Shown here: piece after piece, positions 9,211 to 52,089 of the stretch
Numbering within the stretch: position 1 is the stretch's first letter
Layout: each line of letters begins with the position of its first letter
Made by a program: the position numbers and the translations under genes
Notes under the pieces: generated by a model
Databases searched by the model: none
Seen by the model: the letters and a program-made list of their open reading frames with translations, nothing else
Told to the model about the DNA's origin: nothing
Source of the DNA: Fodinibius salinus
GTDB taxonomy: Bacteria; Bacteroidota; Rhodothermia; Balneolales; Balneolaceae
Direction: 5' to 3'
Length of the DNA stretch: 64,000 nt
Assembly: GCF_008124865.1 (NCBI RefSeq)
Contig: NZ_VNHY01000001.1
Span: 744,001-808,000, forward strand

Positions 9211-10050
9211 ATGATATATGCACGTAGCGTCATATTATTGTTAATAGTTCTCTTTAGCTGGGAAAGCTTCGGAGTCTCATCTGCAACAGCCAAAAGTGTA
9301 ATTCTTGATCCTCTCCAAGAATTACCTTCGCAGAAAAAAAATCATTCTGATCCATCACCGGAATTTGATAAAGAGCTAAATTCGCTGATTCATATCCTTA
9401 AAAAAGAGGGCTTCGATATCAAAAAACTGCTCGAAGATCCACGCTTTGAGCTATATAATAACATCGCCGATCGATTCCGAAAATCAGCCGAACGGAAATC
9501 ACACAGTCTATCATCCTATAAACAAGTACTCGGTTTTAAGGATAAAGGAGAGCAAATTGTTTACTTCCTCGAGGATTACCAAAAACAACTCGACAAGGCT
9601 GAATCACAATACAATATTTCAAGATATGTAATTGCCGCTATTATTGGCATAGAATCAGACTTTGGCAATAACGTAGGAACCTATAATCCCTTTAACGCCT
9701 ACGTTTCGATGTATGTAGAAAAGTATCGCCAGCAGTTTGCCAAGGCTCAAATCAAAGAACTTTTAGAGTTTGTTAACCGAAAAAATATTGATGTTTATGA
9801 GCTTAAATCTAGCTATGCTGGCGCTATGGCTTTTGCACAGTTCATCCCCTACTCATTAAACAAATGGTTTGTCGGCGACGATATTTTCGATATGAATAAT
9901 AATATTATGTCGGTGGCCAATTATTTGCGCTATTTCAAACAAAAAACCAACAACATAGAAACAGCCGTACTCCGCTATAACCCCAGCAGTATGTATAAAC
10001 AGGCGGTGATGGACTTGGCTCAGCTGGCAGAAAAGCAACATAGAAATTAA
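9211..10050 (+). CDS. Lytic murein transglycosylase (MltB/SLT_2-like)
   Basis: Cleaves peptidoglycan glycan strands in the periplasm with anhydromuropeptide formation. Choosing the ATG at 9211 rather than the in-frame TTG at 9202 puts the signal peptide at the N-terminus (RSVILLLIVLFSWESFG). The catalytic region has AAIIGIESDFGNNVGTYN, with the catalytic glutamate in IESDFG, followed by SSYAGAMAFAQFIP and MSVANYLRYF, the standard MltB order. The protein is shorter than E. coli MltB and lacks the lipobox. It is followed after 68 bp by an exported metalloprotease-like gene. Confidence 0.85.
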   Translation: MIYARSVILLLIVLFSWESFGVSSATAKSVILDPLQELPSQKKNHSDPSPEFDKELNSLIHILKKEGFDIKKLLEDPRFELYNNIADRFRKSAERKSHSLSSYKQVLGFKDKGEQIVYFLEDYQKQLDKAESQYNISRYVIAAIIGIESDFGNNVGTYNPFNAYVSMYVEKYRQQFAKAQIKELLEFVNRKNIDVYELKSSYAGAMAFAQFIPYSLNKWFVGDDIFDMNNNIMSVANYLRYFKQKTNNIETAVLRYNPSSMYKQAVMDLAQLAEKQHRN

Positions 10051-10118
10051 TTTTTGTAATTTTATTATACAGAATTATTTTTGGGGAAATCAATTCATCT
10101 TGATCTTAATTCCGTACT

Positions 10119-11045
10119 GTGAGCAAACAACTTATCTCTTTCATAGTCTTTATTGGCCTTGCTATAACTTTTGTAATCTTTTTTAGCACCATCTCATCTG
10201 GTACAAATCCGATACCTTGTCAAGAACCATTAACCTACCGCATCGCTTCAATTGATCCTCGGTTTGATACTGATCGTAAAACGATCCAAACAGTCATGGA
10301 AGATGTAGAAGCACTCTGGAAAACCGCACTTGATAAAGAAGTCCTAGAATATCGTCCCGAAGAAGGATTAGTAGATATACATATCGTTTTTGGGAAGGAG
10401 CAACAACGTACTAAGAAGGAAAAACAACTTTCGCAGCGAGTTCAACGGTTAAAAAAACAAATTTTGACTCGTAAGGAGAACCTGGAACGGTTGAGAAAAA
10501 CCTATGAAAAACGTAAGCGAGATTTTGATAAAAACAGAAATGCTTATTTAGTAGCAATCAAGAGTTTTAATACCCAGATAGAACAATGGAACAAACAAAG
10601 AGGCGGTATTCCTCCGGGCAAAAAAAAAGAAGTCAAACAAATGGAACGTGATATAAAACGGCTTGAAAGGAAAGTAAAACGTAAAAGGCAGAATACAGAA
10701 ATGATGAGGAAACGAGTGAATAACAAACTTGAACAAGTAAATAGACTCGTTAAAAAACAGAAAAATACTATTGACGAATATAAAAAACGATTTTCTGAAG
10801 CCCGTAAATTTAACCAGGGACAGTTTATCGCAAAAAAGGATGAACTACGAATCAATATTTACCAGTACCGTAACCGGGCAGAACTTAAAACGGTATTGGC
10901 ACATGAAGCAGGCCATGCTATGGGAATTCGGCATGTTGACAATCCCAAAGCACTTATGAATGACATGTTGGATGAACAAGATATTTTCAATCTCAAGTTA
11001 ACACAAGACGATGTATCCGCACTTGCAAAACAATGCGACCAATAA
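10119..11045 (+). CDS. Matrixin-like zinc metalloprotease with a long coiled-coil insertion
   Basis: 308 residues, GTG start; an N-terminal membrane helix or uncleaved signal (about 4-24) targets it to the envelope. The C-terminal zinc motif HEAGHAMGIRH (about 262-272) is the HExxHxxGxxH site of metzincins, followed by a met-turn-like ALMNDM. Residues about 95-235 are an extremely Lys/Arg/Glu-rich coiled coil placed inside the protease domain, between the early strand (VDIHIVFG) and the strand just before the zinc helix (ELRINIYQYRN). Such an insertion is unusual for matrixins. The peptidase role is inferred; the substrate is unknown. Confidence 0.7.
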   Translation: MSKQLISFIVFIGLAITFVIFFSTISSGTNPIPCQEPLTYRIASIDPRFDTDRKTIQTVMEDVEALWKTALDKEVLEYRPEEGLVDIHIVFGKEQQRTKKEKQLSQRVQRLKKQILTRKENLERLRKTYEKRKRDFDKNRNAYLVAIKSFNTQIEQWNKQRGGIPPGKKKEVKQMERDIKRLERKVKRKRQNTEMMRKRVNNKLEQVNRLVKKQKNTIDEYKKRFSEARKFNQGQFIAKKDELRINIYQYRNRAELKTVLAHEAGHAMGIRHVDNPKALMNDMLDEQDIFNLKLTQDDVSALAKQCDQ

Positions 11046-21903: not shown

Positions 21904-21934
21904 CATTAATTTGAATAAAAGATAGAGGTCACTT

Positions 21935-22498
21935 ATCGCAAGAAACAGAAGAAGACGACGACCACGGGGCAACGATGATCGGCCCAATTCTAATGAAGAA
22001 ATACGAGCATCAAAAGTACGGGTTATTTACCCTGAGGATGCCGATAAAGAACACGAAGTTGTACCTATAGAACGTGCCTTAGAAATTGCCGAATCATACG
22101 GGCTCGACCTTGTTGAGGTAGCACCCAATGCAAACCCTCCTGTTTGCAAAGTGCTGGATTTCGGCAAGTATATGTACAAAAAGAAAAAGAAAGAAAAAGA
22201 AGCCAAGAAGAAGCAGCACACCGTTGAGGTAAAAGAGCTTCGATTTCGTCCTAATACGGATGATCATGACCTTGAGTTTAAAACACGTCATGCCCGTGAA
22301 TTTTTAGAGGGCGGTGACAAAGTAAAAGCTACGGTTCAATTTAGAGGACGAGATATGCTTTATACCGAACGCGGTGAAGAGCTTCTGCAAGATCTGGCCG
22401 AAGAGCTGGATGATGTCAGCGAAATTGAGACAAAACCCAATATGGAAGGCCGCCGTATGATTATGATGCTGGCTCCTATGGGTAAAGGTTCATCATAA
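21935..22498 (+). CDS. infC: Translation initiation factor IF-3, non-canonical ATC start
   Basis: Prevents premature 30S-50S joining and proofreads start codons. Homology extends well upstream of the first in-frame ATG (22151): the IF-3 N-terminal domain reads ASKVRVIYPEDADKEHEVVP and SYGLDLVEVAPNANPPVCK, all before or across it. Between the in-frame TAG at 21923 and 22151 there is no ATG, GTG or TTG. The ATC at 21935 is preceded 5 bases upstream by AGAGGT (21924-21929). An AUC start fits the known habit of infC genes (AUU in E. coli), which makes IF-3 discriminate against its own mRNA. The protein is 187 residues with a basic Arg-rich N-terminal extension. Confidence 0.93.
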   Translation: MARNRRRRRPRGNDDRPNSNEEIRASKVRVIYPEDADKEHEVVPIERALEIAESYGLDLVEVAPNANPPVCKVLDFGKYMYKKKKKEKEAKKKQHTVEVKELRFRPNTDDHDLEFKTRHAREFLEGGDKVKATVQFRGRDMLYTERGEELLQDLAEELDDVSEIETKPNMEGRRMIMMLAPMGKGSS

Positions 22499-45055: not shown

Positions 45056-45186
45056 TAATAATTAGCGCACATTTAAGAGAGCGTACCTCGACTATTGGTT
45101 ATCCACTTTTGGCTTTTTCGCTCTCCGTTCGTTATTTAGCAAATCAACAGTAGTCCGTGCGCCGGTTAAGCGCAAGGTCGTTATAC
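45056..45186 (+). repeat. attC site 3 (about 131 bp, degenerate left core)
   Basis: R' GTTATAC (45180-45186) is clear and preceded by GCGCCGGTTAAGCGCAAGGTC. The left core is degenerate (TAATAAT at about 45056-45062, followed by TAGCGCA as in site 1). The middle has TGGCTTTTTCGCTCTCCGTT and CGTTATTTA, shared with sites 5, 7 and 11. Confidence 0.75.
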
Positions 45187-45215
45187 CTCATTTCAATCAA
45201 TAGCTTAAATAATTA

Positions 45216-46195
45216 ATGGAAACTTGGAAATGGATTAAAAAAAACTCAGCCACATCTTTTCTTTCATTGGGGTTGTTCTTACAGCTTATGCAATTTTTCA
45301 TGTTCCAGACTATGTAAAGGAATATCGTCAACAAAAAACAAGATCAGTTAATCAAGAACTAATTGAGCAAACCCAACAGTTAGTTTATAATGACCAAAAA
45401 ATCGATTCTGAAGATCTTCTGACCTTAATAAGAGGAAAAGAACTTCGATATAATATAGACTATCCTTATGGAGCCAATGAATTATTGATCCAAGTTCAGG
45501 AAAGTTTTCTTAGCAACAAGTTTATACCACTCGAAAAAAGAAAAAACATTGTAGAAGAAGTAGATTCAATTCGATCATCAATATATCCAACCCTTTCATC
45601 AGGTATTGATGACTCATTATCCTCCATCGTAGCTTCTTATGGTAAAAAAACAGAGTCTGAAAATGATTTAATCGCAACTATAATTGACATTCTTTCAATT
45701 ATAACTGCTCTAACTGCTTTAATTGTTGGTCTCTACAGCATCTTTTCAAAAGCAAAAGCAGAACAAGAAGCGGAAGTAGAAGAAAAAGTTGAGTCAAAAA
45801 AGGATGAAATTGAAGAAGGCTTCAGAAGAGCTTTTGACTTTGAAAACCTTGTTGGAAACATTCTAAAAAATGTTACTGATTTCGAAATAACTAGAACCAA
45901 CCCAAGAGAATATTTAACTGATTTTGAAATTAATTCTCCAAAAGGAAAAATTGGAGTTGAAGTAAAATATTCTGTACAAGACAGACTGATGGGAAATGTT
46001 GTACACCAGATAAAACATTATTCATCTCAATATGACTTAGGTATAATTGTTGTTTCTAATGTTCCCTTCTCCAATTATTCAAGGAAGCTATTCGAAAGTG
46101 AGGGAATTTTATTAGTCACAAGTGAGAATGAAGATGAGATAAAAGAAAAGATAAAAGAATCAATTAATAGAATAATGAATAAAAATGAGGTATAA
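45216..46195 (+). CDS. Cassette 4: membrane-anchored Mrr-like restriction endonuclease, read through a -1 frameshift
   Basis: The ATG at 45216 opens METWKWIKK, but zero frame stops at 45315. At A AAA AAC (45239-45245) a -1 shift enters the frame that continues without stop to 46195, giving about 325 residues. The joined protein has an N-terminal membrane helix (SFIGVVLTAYAIFHVPDYV), a second one (IIDILSIITALTALIVGLYSI), then a charged coil and a PD-(D/E)XK domain with FENLVGNIL, a DFEI strand and EVKYS (Glu-x-Lys). Either this is programmed frameshifting, or an indel in the run of eight A. The uninterrupted part begins with TTG at 45485. Mrr-like enzymes cut modified or foreign DNA; this role is inferred. 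Confidence 0.6.
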
Positions 46196-46342
46196 CCAAC
46201 GCTTCAACTTGGATCCCGACAGTGGTCGGGCCAGGCAGCACCTCGCCTGTTCCCTGCTCGTTTTGTTTTCTGGGTGCCAACTAGTAAACTGCAATCGCAT
46301 TCACACTAGCCTGTGCGCCGGTTATGCGCCAGGTCGTTAGGT
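46190..46342 (+). repeat. attC site 4 (153 bp)
   Basis: R'' GTATAAC (46190-46196) is exactly complementary to TTATAC, the start of the same cassette (45181). R' GTTAGGT at 46336-46342. The left arm reads CAACGCTTCAA; GGATCCCGACAGTGGTCGGG is shared with site 11, and GGGTGCCAACTAGTAAACTG with sites 2 and 10. R'' overlaps the stop of the cassette ORF. Confidence 0.9.
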
Positions 46343-48547: not shown

Positions 48548-49111
48548 ATGAGTAACGACAAAGAAATACCCGATCGAGAAGATGTTCACAACAAAGTCAT
48601 CGATTTGATGTATTCAACCCATATTTTAAATAATTCACACCGTGGTGATGTTGCGGAGGCACTTGTTATGATGGCATTAGGAGATGAGTGGAATTTTGTT
48701 GGCTTGGGATGGCATCCCTGGGATTTGCAATATGGATCAGGACCAGACAGAATTAGAATTCAAGTCAAAAACATTGCACTTCAACAAATTTGGGGCGAAA
48801 CTAAGTCTCCAACTCTGGTCTTCGGATGGAAATCTAATCCACCAAGCTACTTCGAGAGAGATAATCCCGGAGTAGAAATCGAAGACGAAGGTTATTTTTG
48901 CGACCTCTTTGTCTTTTGTCTTCACCTCGTGTCAGATGAAGATAATGCTGACCAAGTTGACCCGCAGCAATGGAGTTTTTTAGTCATTCCGACAGAAGAT
49001 CTAAGATCAAAGCGAAAATCTATGGTTTTATCAAAGGCTTTGGATAAGTGGACTCCAATAAAATGGCCTGAATTAGCAGAAAAAGTTGAAGTGGTTGCAA
49101 ACCGACTATAA
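48548..49111 (+). CDS. Cassette 7: possible PD-(D/E)XK-type nuclease
   Basis: 187 residues, soluble. A restriction-endonuclease-like order is suggested by GDVAEALVMMALGDEW (Glu on a helix), HPWDLQYGSGPDRIRIQVKN (Asp, then Gln-x-Lys on the next strand) and a following PTLVFGWKSN strand. The Q-x-K in place of E-x-K occurs in real members of the superfamily. No restriction specificity domain or methylase is present. The assignment is an inference from motif spacing, not a family match. Confidence 0.5.
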   Translation: MSNDKEIPDREDVHNKVIDLMYSTHILNNSHRGDVAEALVMMALGDEWNFVGLGWHPWDLQYGSGPDRIRIQVKNIALQQIWGETKSPTLVFGWKSNPPSYFERDNPGVEIEDEGYFCDLFVFCLHLVSDEDNADQVDPQQWSFLVIPTEDLRSKRKSMVLSKALDKWTPIKWPELAEKVEVVANRL

Positions 49112-49136
49112 ATAATATTTAACAACGGAATCGTCA

Positions 49137-49255
49137 GCCAAAGCAACGCTTCAACAGGGACGCAGCCTGCCCGTTTTGATTTCTTTCTGCCAAATTATAA
49201 ACTGTAATCGCATTCACACTAATCCGCACGCCGGTTAAGCGCCGGGTCGTTAGGG
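49137..49255 (+). repeat. attC site 8 (about 119 bp, degenerate left core)
   Basis: Left core GCCAAAG (about 49137-49143) is altered; the adjacent CAACGCTTCAA is conserved with site 4. Right side CTGTAATCGCATTCACACTA and CGCCGGTTAAGCGCCGGGTC lead into R' GTTAGGG (49249-49255). Confidence 0.78.
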
Positions 49256-49283
49256 GTACTTTTTAATTTAACGTCTACAAAAA

Positions 49284-50006
49284 ATGAAATGCGAAAATTG
49301 CGGCGAAAATATTCCACTTTGGCAAACAGAATATAATCTGGATGGTATAACGGTTTGTTTCGATTGCTATAGCAATAATTACGAAGACATAAAGTATCGT
49401 GCTAAGCAAAAAGGAAAAACCAAAAAAAAGAAAGTTGTAACGACTAATTCTGAGAATGAAACCAATAGTTATTCAGATGACGATTTCTTTTCGACTAATG
49501 GTAGAATAAGAAGAAGCACCTACTTCTTTCGGACTCTCTTCTTAGCAATTCCTTTCACTATAATTTCATTAATTCCTCAAAGTTCGCAAGAACCAGGTCC
49601 AGCTATACTTTTCATTTTAGTAGCGATTGGATTTGGGATTTTGCAAATAATCCAAGCGATTAAAAGATTGCACGATATCGATTTAGGTGGAGAGTATATT
49701 TTACTCAGTTTCATTCCAATCGTCAATCTTATATTTGGACTTTATATTCTTTTTAAAGAAGGTACATCAGGTCCAAATCAGTATGGCGAAGATCCTAAAA
49801 AAAATGAAAGAACTTCAGAGAATAAACTGAATTCATCAGCCTCTAATCTTAAAGAAACCATTTCAAACAAAATGCAATCTTCAACAAATGAAAATACTCA
49901 AAACCATGGATTAGACGATCTTGAAAAATTAGCTGATTTAAAAGATAAAGGTATTATTACAGAAGAAGAGTTTGTTGCAAAGAAGAAACAAATATTAGGT
50001 TTGTAA
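49284..50006 (+). CDS. Cassette 8: zinc-module + DUF805 membrane domain + SHOCT protein
   Basis: 240 residues in three parts. Residues 1-40: zinc module with CxxC at 3/6 and 25/28 (MKCENCGE, GITVCFDCY). Residues about 68-165: DUF805-type membrane domain (FFSTNGRIRRSTYFF, then helices and LLSFIPIVNLIFGLYILFKE, ending GTSGPNQYGEDP). Residues about 212-240: a SHOCT motif (LEKLADLKDKGIITEEEFVA). The zinc module is shared with the last cassette protein. The combination suggests a membrane-tethered adaptor; the role is unknown. Confidence 0.75.
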   Translation: MKCENCGENIPLWQTEYNLDGITVCFDCYSNNYEDIKYRAKQKGKTKKKKVVTTNSENETNSYSDDDFFSTNGRIRRSTYFFRTLFLAIPFTIISLIPQSSQEPGPAILFILVAIGFGILQIIQAIKRLHDIDLGGEYILLSFIPIVNLIFGLYILFKEGTSGPNQYGEDPKKNERTSENKLNSSASNLKETISNKMQSSTNENTQNHGLDDLEKLADLKDKGIITEEEFVAKKKQILGL

Positions 50007-50030
50007 CCCTAGCGTAAGAATAAAAGTATC

Positions 50031-50145
50031 CCTAACAGCCATAAAGCGGCCAGTTCTTGCCAACCTCTCTTTTTATAGTTACTCTTTAATTTTAAACAAT
50101 ATTCAACACGTTGGCGCCTGCACCTTACGTATAATGCCGTTATAG
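50031..50145 (+). repeat. attC site 9 (115 bp)
   Basis: R'' CCCTAAC (50031-50037) is the exact complement of the TTAGGG opening the same cassette (49250). R' GTTATAG at 50139-50145, extended by GG. Inner sequence differs from the two common types (CCTTACGTATAATGCC before R'), so this cassette probably came from another source. Confidence 0.85.
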
Positions 50146-50158
50146 GGCTTTAAATAAA

Positions 50159-50803
50159 ATGGACCTAAATCAAGATATAGTTAACTTAATCATTGGGCTG
50201 AGTATTCTGGTCGGTGCACTACAGTGTTTCTTCGGCTATCGAATATTTAAATTCATTCTCGGGCTTACCGGGTTTTTGATTGGTGGTGTATTGGCGGGTG
50301 CGATGGGTTATTCATTTGCACAGGAAAAAGCCTTTGCCCTCTTAGCAGGCTTGGCCGGAGGATTTATCGGTGCAACGCTAATGGTTATGCTATACTACGT
50401 AGGCATATTCTTGATCGGCGCTCTCCTTGGTGGTTTTCTTGGAACTGTTCTTTACGCAGTTGCCGAAAGTAACCCAGAACCAGCGGTCTTGCTCATACTT
50501 GCTGTAATCACTGGAGTCATAGCTTTGATCTCCCAAAAATTAATGATAATTGTTTCGACGGGATTTGGTGGTGCATGGTTAGTGGTTATCGGAATTGCCT
50601 CTTTAACTACCGAAATTGTTGATTTAAGCAATTTTGACCAGATTTTCAGTTCGGGCGGCAGTTACTTGTATGCTATCATATTGTGTTGGCTTACGCTTGG
50701 GATCGTTGGTGTCATTGTGCAATACCGTTCAGAGCCCAAAAAGAAACCCCAACCATCTTTTGCACCCAACAGTGAAGAAGCGGCCGGACCTTACCTGCAT
50801 TAA
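50159..50803 (+). CDS. Cassette 9: multi-pass membrane protein (DUF4203/TMEM198-like)
   Basis: 214 residues with about six to seven transmembrane helices rich in Gly and Ala (IVNLIIGLSILVGALQCFFG, LGLTGFLIGGVLAGAMGYSF, LAGLAGGFIGATLMVML, GIFLIGALLGGFLGTVLYAV). The FGYRIFKFILGLTGFLIGG start is typical of DUF4203/TMEM198-like proteins. The C-terminus is short and Pro-rich. It is the first of two ORFs in a cassette, starting 13 bp after the core T of TTATAGGG. Function unknown. Confidence 0.68.
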   Translation: MDLNQDIVNLIIGLSILVGALQCFFGYRIFKFILGLTGFLIGGVLAGAMGYSFAQEKAFALLAGLAGGFIGATLMVMLYYVGIFLIGALLGGFLGTVLYAVAESNPEPAVLLILAVITGVIALISQKLMIIVSTGFGGAWLVVIGIASLTTEIVDLSNFDQIFSSGGSYLYAIILCWLTLGIVGVIVQYRSEPKKKPQPSFAPNSEEAAGPYLH

Positions 50804-50866
50804 TGAGTCGTGAAATTAGTAAAGAGTAGCCTAAACCGTTAAAATAATTTCTAATCCTAACAGACG

Positions 50867-51622
50867 ATGGACGATTTAGTCGCAGTTTTGTTGGTGTTAT
50901 TAGTAAGTGGTTTTGTTTGGCTAATTTCACTAATGCGTAAAAAAATATTGAGTCTATTCAGAGGTTGGTTTGGCGAAAAAAAGACTACTTTCTATCTGTG
51001 GCTATCGCTCAATTCGAAAGTATACCGAAAATTTCATGATATCATCATAAAAACAGAAAACGGTACAACTCAAATTGACCACCTTCTTGTATCACCATAT
51101 GGACTGTTCATAATTGAAACAAAGAATATAAAAGGGTGGATATTTGGAGCTGAGGATCAAAAAAGATGGACGCAGTCCCTTTATGGAAGTAATTATTCAT
51201 TCCAGAATCCGATAAGGCAAACCTTTAGGCAAAAAAAGGTTATTTCTGAATTTTTCGGGGTCAATGAATCAATCGTACATACTGTTATTTATTTCATCGG
51301 TGATTGTAAATTTAAAACAGAGTTGCCAGATAACGTTATAAACTCCCGGCTGGGCAAGCACATTAAACAGTTTAAGGATCGGGTTCTTTCATCTGAAGAA
51401 ATTGATCGCGTAGTCGGGGAAATTGAATACTACGTTTCTGAGTCTTCACTCACCACAAAAGACCATGTACAATCATTGCGTGAAAGGCATAATTCAACAA
51501 CAGTTTGCCCGAAATGCGGTTCGCAGTTAGTTGAGAGAACAGCGAAAAAAGGTCCTAATGCTGGTACAAAATTTTTAGGATGCGAAAACTACCCAAAATG
51601 TCGCTTTACAAAAGATATATAA
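50867..51622 (+). CDS. Cassette 9: NERD nuclease-domain protein with C-terminal topoisomerase-type zinc finger
   Basis: 251 residues. N-terminal membrane helix (about 5-23), NERD domain (about 38-150) with the PD-(D/E)XK-like site D71 ... E84-x-K86 in TQIDHLLVSPYGLFIIETKN, and a four-cysteine zinc ribbon at the end (VCPKCGSQL ... GCENYPKCRF), as in topoisomerase C-terminal fingers. NERD proteins are predicted nucleases found in DNA-processing and defence contexts. The gene lies 63 bp after the first cassette ORF with no attC site between, so both travel together. Confidence 0.82.
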   Translation: MDDLVAVLLVLLVSGFVWLISLMRKKILSLFRGWFGEKKTTFYLWLSLNSKVYRKFHDIIIKTENGTTQIDHLLVSPYGLFIIETKNIKGWIFGAEDQKRWTQSLYGSNYSFQNPIRQTFRQKKVISEFFGVNESIVHTVIYFIGDCKFKTELPDNVINSRLGKHIKQFKDRVLSSEEIDRVVGEIEYYVSESSLTTKDHVQSLRERHNSTTVCPKCGSQLVERTAKKGPNAGTKFLGCENYPKCRFTKDI

Positions 51623-51686
51623 TAGAATCTAAACTACATTAAAACGTATTTTGCTAGAGATAAAAAATAAACTGACATAAGGCTCC

Positions 51687-51814
51687 CTATAACCCGCATT
51701 TAGCAGATAGTCCTCCCTCCTTCTCCTGAATGCTATCGGGATTCGGGGTGCAGGCTTCCGCTCGTTTTGTTTTCTGGGTGCCAACTAGTAAACTCCAATC
51801 GCATTCACTAATCC
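51687..51814 (+). repeat. attC site 10 (right end truncated)
   Basis: Left core CTATAAC (51687-51693), preceded by CC, so that CCCTATAA is the exact complement of the TTATAGGG start of the cassette at 50140. The inner segment GGGTGCCAACTAGTAAACTC and AATCGCATTCACTAATCC follow, then the site stops; no GTTRRRY is found before the next ATG. Confidence 0.8.
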
Positions 51815-51831
51815 CTAATTAACTCTGCCTG

Positions 51832-52089
51832 ATGGACACTTGGTTTGTGTATATGATCCGCTGTACCGACGATAGCCTGTATACCGGAAGCACAAACGAT
51901 GTGATCCGCCGCTGGCATCAGCACCGAAAAGGCTATGGCGCCAAATACCTGCAAGCCCATACCCCGAAAGCCGTAGTGTTTGTTGAGCAGCACCCTGGGC
52001 GCTCCGAGGCTTGCAAGCGTGAACATGAGATCAAGCAATATTCTAGAGAGGAAAAGGAGTCATTAATTACAGAGGCTTATCAGTTTTAA
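51832..52089 (+). CDS. Cassette 10: GIY-YIG nuclease-domain protein (YhbQ/UPF0213-like)
   Basis: 85 residues, one GIY-YIG domain: WFVYMIRCTDDSLYTGSTND carries the V-Y and Y-T-G halves (the family GIY-YIG core), followed by the conserved Arg (VIRRWHQH), the GYGAKYLQAH motif and Glu-containing helix (ACKREHEIKQYS). This is the small stand-alone UPF0213 type, related to YhbQ, with weak DNA nuclease activity reported for some members. It is richer in G+C than the other cassette ORFs, hinting at a different source. It starts after the truncated site 10. Confidence 0.85.
   Translation: MDTWFVYMIRCTDDSLYTGSTNDVIRRWHQHRKGYGAKYLQAHTPKAVVFVEQHPGRSEACKREHEIKQYSREEKESLITEAYQF

Follow-up and report, generated by a model that had tools for sequence, protein, structure and literature searches.

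Genes stored in integron cassettes can lose their reading frame, as in Halorhodospira halochloris, where a cassette gene carries a one-nucleotide deletion (PMC7923331). Runs of A at such positions are also known from recoding. In IS1, A6C is used for -1 frameshifting, and a 2025 study of this element found the rate from A6C alone to be effectively very low (PMC12428005). According to Sharma et al. (2014), high frameshifting in bacteria requires that the last three letters of the site be all purine or all pyrimidine; the same paper includes one proven A_AAA_AAC cluster of IS elements for which no stimulator is established, and some proven bacterial sites without downstream structure (PMC4066793). 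For transcriptional slippage, Baranov et al. (2005) placed the limit usually at nine A and inferred productive slippage on eight A in some IS elements (PMC1088944), and C. rodentium tssM is restored via transcriptional slippage on 11 A (PMC4256274). In the searched text of a recoding review, the heptamer A AAA AAC was not found (PMC5009743).

Here, we describe a cassette gene that appears to start in one frame and to continue in another. It lies in a window of 64,000 nucleotides (the whole stretch analysed, C1:744001-808000; all positions below refer to it unless stated otherwise) of a 2.86 Mb genome in nine contigs. As in the HicA cassette of H. halochloris, a single gene between attC sites seems to have lost its frame; unlike in that cassette, the cargo is an orphan nuclease-type protein for which no intact relative was found (PMC7923331). 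The locus shares with IS1 the same heptamer in the same phase, but there is no transposase, no structure was detected downstream, and the shift, instead of linking two domains, would attach an N-terminus of nine residues to the body (PMC12428005). As in the cases of poly-A slippage, the frames of a disrupted gene meet at a run of A, here of eight against the usual limit of nine and the 11 of tssM (PMC1088944, PMC4256274). Our preferred explanation, to which we give about an even chance, is that the gene was recently disrupted by a one-nucleotide lesion in the genome.

Table 1. Features of the cassette and of its frame-disrupted gene (window positions)
Feature	Position	Strand	Basis
Integron cassette carrying the gene	45181..46336	+	Core GTTATAC, its G at 45180; next junction G at 46336
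Frame-0 ORF, presumed N-terminus followed by out-of-frame reading	45216..45317	+	ATG at +36 from the junction, like neighbouring cassette genes
A8 run and C with in-phase heptamer A AAA AAC	45237..45245	+	Heptamer at 45239-45245
-1 frame, gene body	45239..46195	+	Length far above that in simulated cassettes
T/C-rich stretch, where the frame change may equally well lie	45255..45263	+	Codon change-point maximum at 45264
PD-(D/E)XK-type C-terminal domain (predicted), residues 191-318 of the -1 frame	45809..46192	+	Model and fold comparison
attC site of the cassette	46190..46339 (limits approximate)	+	R'' core 46190-46196; R' end in the 46336-46342 region; repeat families D1, D2 and D5 with the cores

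Re-reading of the sequence confirmed the coordinates, frames and heptamer phase given in a preliminary description of this locus. On the plus strand, frame 0 encodes 33 aa between ATG 45216 and TAA 45315-45317. In the -1 frame, TAA 45236-45238 is followed by 318 stop-free codons starting at 45239, and the next stop is TAA 46193-46195; the first ATG, GTG or TTG within this open stretch is TTG 45485. The run consists of eight A (45237-45244) followed by C 45245, and A AAA AAC sits in X XXY YYZ phase relative to the upstream frame. The length of the -1 frame is not due to chance: among 3000 simulated cassettes of the same dinucleotide make-up, none had a plus-strand open frame of 318 codons, and the longest reached 183. 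We rejected the idea that the 33-aa ORF is an independent product, its codon score past 45266 lying 2.8 and 5.8 nats under that of the -1 frame.

Complementary cores and neighbouring cassettes with related attC ends upheld the earlier reading of the locus as a cassette. An exact complement of the core GTTATAC (45180-45186) is found at 46190-46196 (GTATAAC); this attC R'' core also contains the stop codon of the -1 frame. Repeats resembling attC (D1-D5) recur from about 43.5 to 52.3 kb of the window. Across three arrays, 13 segments are delimited by junctions on both sides, two of them long and each holding more than one gene. Ten of the 13 contain an exact complementary core pair, and in 12 the leading long frame starts +6 to +93 from the junction. 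The sole exception is the cassette described here, in which the first start of the long frame lies at +305 and ATG 45216, at +36, is in the other frame. This pattern indicates that the N-terminus and the body of one gene occupy two frames. A pattern search for R' ends gave 12 exact sites, which cluster in arrays, and 36 sites at up to two mismatches; a reversed control gave 32 with equally many mismatches allowed, so little weight can be put on the loose matches. An integron integrase (TIGR02249, 440 bits) is encoded about 200 kb from the cassette (G000:C1:583917-584858), and this family scored above its cut-off in 11 of 12 genomes of the genus.

The product predicted from the -1 frame would carry a PD-(D/E)XK nuclease domain at its C-terminus and is putatively membrane-anchored, the anchoring being suggested by putative transmembrane helices judged by eye. 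A single-sequence structure model had a mean pLDDT of 49.9 overall; it was poor through residue 188, and the C-terminal blocks had means of 54-83. The modelled C-terminal part has an alpha-beta-beta-beta-alpha-beta core, on which D228 and E241-x-K243 were read on neighbouring strands (D-x12-E-x-K), as the PD-(D/E)XK fold expects. Comparison by VIA-align with solved PD-(D/E)XK proteins returned VC1899 (Z 12.4), Can2-type (11.7 and 11.4) and Cdn1 (11.3 and 10.6) structures, followed by Bax1 (9.4) and AF1548 (8.3), in a list where unrelated folds score about 7 to 7.7. A Foldseek search with the model gave no match at E 0.001 or less (best 2.1e-3). Pfam, NCBIfam and PADLOC families gave none at the curated cut-off, the sce7726 family scoring 19.5 bits (E 7e-4) against a cut-off of 70, and a phmmer search of solved structures produced no useful match (best E 0.026). 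Thus, of the "Mrr-like membrane nuclease" proposed earlier, the model supports the fold, and membership of the sequence family did not reach any cut-off. The modelled C-terminal fold resembles those of the Can2/Card1/Cdn1, VC1899, Bax1 and Mrr/MspJI nucleases; unlike these, the protein has putative transmembrane helices (by eye), no recognised sensor domain and no family at cut-off.

The gene is present in a single copy in its own genome, and searches of overlapping genome sets yielded no convincing relative. At E 0.001 or less, neither a set of 146 relatives, which included the genome itself, nor one of 394 genomes from the phylum contained another match. A search up to E 5 across 244 genomes of the class gave matches in 28, the gene's own genome among them, and the best of the others had E 0.028. 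Around another phylum member, 6 of 395 genomes matched at E 0.01 or less (best 7e-4); a further search around another phylum member gave 0 of 390 at E 0.001, an empty result that, with no known positive, is uninformative. Searches of the plasmid, phage and viral-contig collections, and two scans of genome contigs seeded by exact 8-residue peptides, returned no homologue. Four of the weak-match neighbourhoods (L011, L017, L044 and L045) were inspected and rejected: by eye, two of the proteins are small heat-shock proteins, one is of a metal-binding type and one is a large protein of a sensor type, so we regard these four matches as noise.

We sought to place the frame change by codon scores. 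These hardly vary between 45237 and about 45270; the maximum lies at 45264 in the T/C-rich stretch, and a change placed in the A-run scores 0.6 to 2.0 nats below this maximum. An early change is preferred: postponing it until the final codon lowers the score by 3.1 or 5.8 nats in two models, the second of which had cassette genes, among them the 3' part of this gene, in its training set. The curve is too flat to choose between the A-run and the T/C-rich stretch, and if the change lies in the latter, the heptamer is irrelevant.

The arrangement is best explained, in our view, by a one-nucleotide insertion or deletion near the start codon that would have cost the gene its frame, most plausibly through replication slippage in the A8 run. 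Translation begun at ATG 45216 would then terminate after 33 codons, and the full product would be absent or present at background level only. Of the options raised in the preliminary description, the "inactivating indel" is the best supported. Within a single bounded cassette whose ends match, start and body of the gene are in different frames. That the break exists in the living genome is our reading of the assembly. The loss would be recent, since 318 stop-free codons and the nuclease-type residues have been kept. Several observations count against a lesion: no intact relative was found that would show the ancestral frame, the rest of the gene is without decay, as would equally be expected of an assembly error or of functional recoding, and the codon change-point does not favour the A-run, where we presume the break to lie, over the T/C-rich stretch. 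If a lesion is responsible, the locus is one more indication that function can be lost in stored integron cassettes, and its annotation should read "disrupted gene" rather than "recoding signal".

A scan for frame breaks across 277 coding segments flagged four (infC and a wzz-type gene, both probably with non-standard starts, a trivial case in recA and a kinase with an in-frame TAG), the scan being blind to most mid-gene breaks and to AT-rich cassette genes like the present one. The kinase, a HisKA_2 histidine kinase (L037, 10637-11497 on the minus strand and upstream), is another broken gene, open on both sides of the TAG, and its existence counts in favour of a lesion. In another cassette region (L043, about 9590-10200), a membrane-protein gene appeared by eye to be spread over three frames; from a motif, it looks like a membrane protease. 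It had neither Pfam support nor a relative in 57 other genomes.

The main rival, which we consider unlikely but deserving of serious weight, is a sequencing or assembly error, in which the gene would be uninterrupted in the living genome and the length of the homopolymer miscalled. Eight-letter runs are where homopolymer length errors fall, and the body of the gene is otherwise intact. Against this, none of the 36 A/T runs of at least eight letters in 464 kb (20 stretches and the window) showed a coding-to-coding frame switch; 20 of the 36 fall within open coding segments, and for three of these 20 the stop is within 13 codons. The counts, from one-sided tests whose thresholds would miss this gene itself, speak mildly against systematic homopolymer errors. 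They also imply that slips of the kind proposed for the preferred lesion are not frequent in this genome.

Recoding, by RNA polymerase slippage on A8 or by -1 ribosomal frameshifting on A AAA AAC, would yield some full-length protein in a leaky or regulated way, and we regard it as an improbable, minority explanation. It is suggested by the position of the in-phase heptamer and the A8 run near the start codon and by the precedents of A6C in IS1, slippage on eight A in IS elements, the 11 A of tssM and the stimulator-less A_AAA_AAC cluster (PMC12428005, PMC1088944, PMC4256274, PMC4066793). The rule on the last three letters, the low rate from A6C alone and the nine-A limit point the other way (PMC4066793, PMC12428005, PMC1088944). 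The heptamer is, moreover, not special in this genome. AAAAAAC occurs 42 times in the window, against 29.8 (s.d. 5.6) in shuffled sequences, of which 2 of 100 reach 42, so it is, if anything, slightly over-represented; A/T runs of at least eight letters number 10, against about 13 simulated. In phase, A AAA AA(A/C/G) is found 13 times in 36 window genes and A AAA AAN 11 times in 2340 cassette codons, and open coding segments of the 464-kb sample contain nine in-phase AAAAAAC and 32 AAAAAAG. AAAAAAC is in phase once more in the same gene, at 45541, and with local codon use Lys-Lys-Asn would be written A AAA AAC 14% of the time.

The RNA 3' of the heptamer gave no sign of a stimulator either. 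In a fold model without pseudoknots, three downstream stretches were no more stable than shuffles (z-scores of -0.26, -0.69 and -0.05). With no stimulator detected, a heptamer that is not special and no homologue with the same arrangement, evidence for the programmed -1 frameshift suggested there is weak. By analogy with the slippage inferred on eight A in IS elements, some leaky full-length product is possible. We give only a slim chance to regulated recoding, in which slippage on A8 or A6C would hold a membrane-anchored PD-(D/E)XK nuclease, harmful if fully expressed, at a low level. If recoding is true, a mobile cassette carries its own dosage limiter; if it is shown, this would be the first integron cassette known to us to limit its own nuclease by such a mechanism, as judged from a limited literature search beyond which earlier reports may exist.

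A separate start of the nuclease in the -1 frame, at TTG 45485 or at a non-standard ATC or ATT codon, with the 33-aa ORF as a leader or as nothing, is very unlikely: TTG 45485 would leave 236 aa including the nuclease domain, and infC (21926-22498), which has no ATG, GTG or TTG before its conserved domain and probably starts at ATC, offers a local parallel, but this start drops 57 codons (45314-45484) that score +3.8 and +6.7 nats as coding (the second model being part-trained on this gene), and the other cassette genes begin near the junction, where ATG 45216 is the start at hand. A rare start codon is known for infC elsewhere. The infC gene (IF-3) of the window follows thrS. In the Wzz-type gene (L034, 6291-7502, minus strand), the coding score begins before any ATG, GTG or TTG, and the start is possibly CTG.

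Nuclease-type genes also occur in nearby cassettes (48548-52089), with NERD and zinc-ribbon domains at 50867 and GIY-YIG at 51832; the gene at 48548, without a Pfam match, has by eye a possible PD-(D/E)XK-like motif. On the minus strand, 0.35 kb from intI, the N-terminal (core-binding) part of an integron integrase stands on its own, with 103 aa counted from ATG (G000:C1:583277-583570; L024, 8274-8585). Pieces that match TIGR02249 at about positions 1-98 and lie in open frames of 109-136 codons are present in 10 of the 12 genus genomes, in one case with an internal TAG; in three of these 10 they are within 0.5 kb of intI. Such a conserved integrase-like DNA-binding fragment could act as a regulator.
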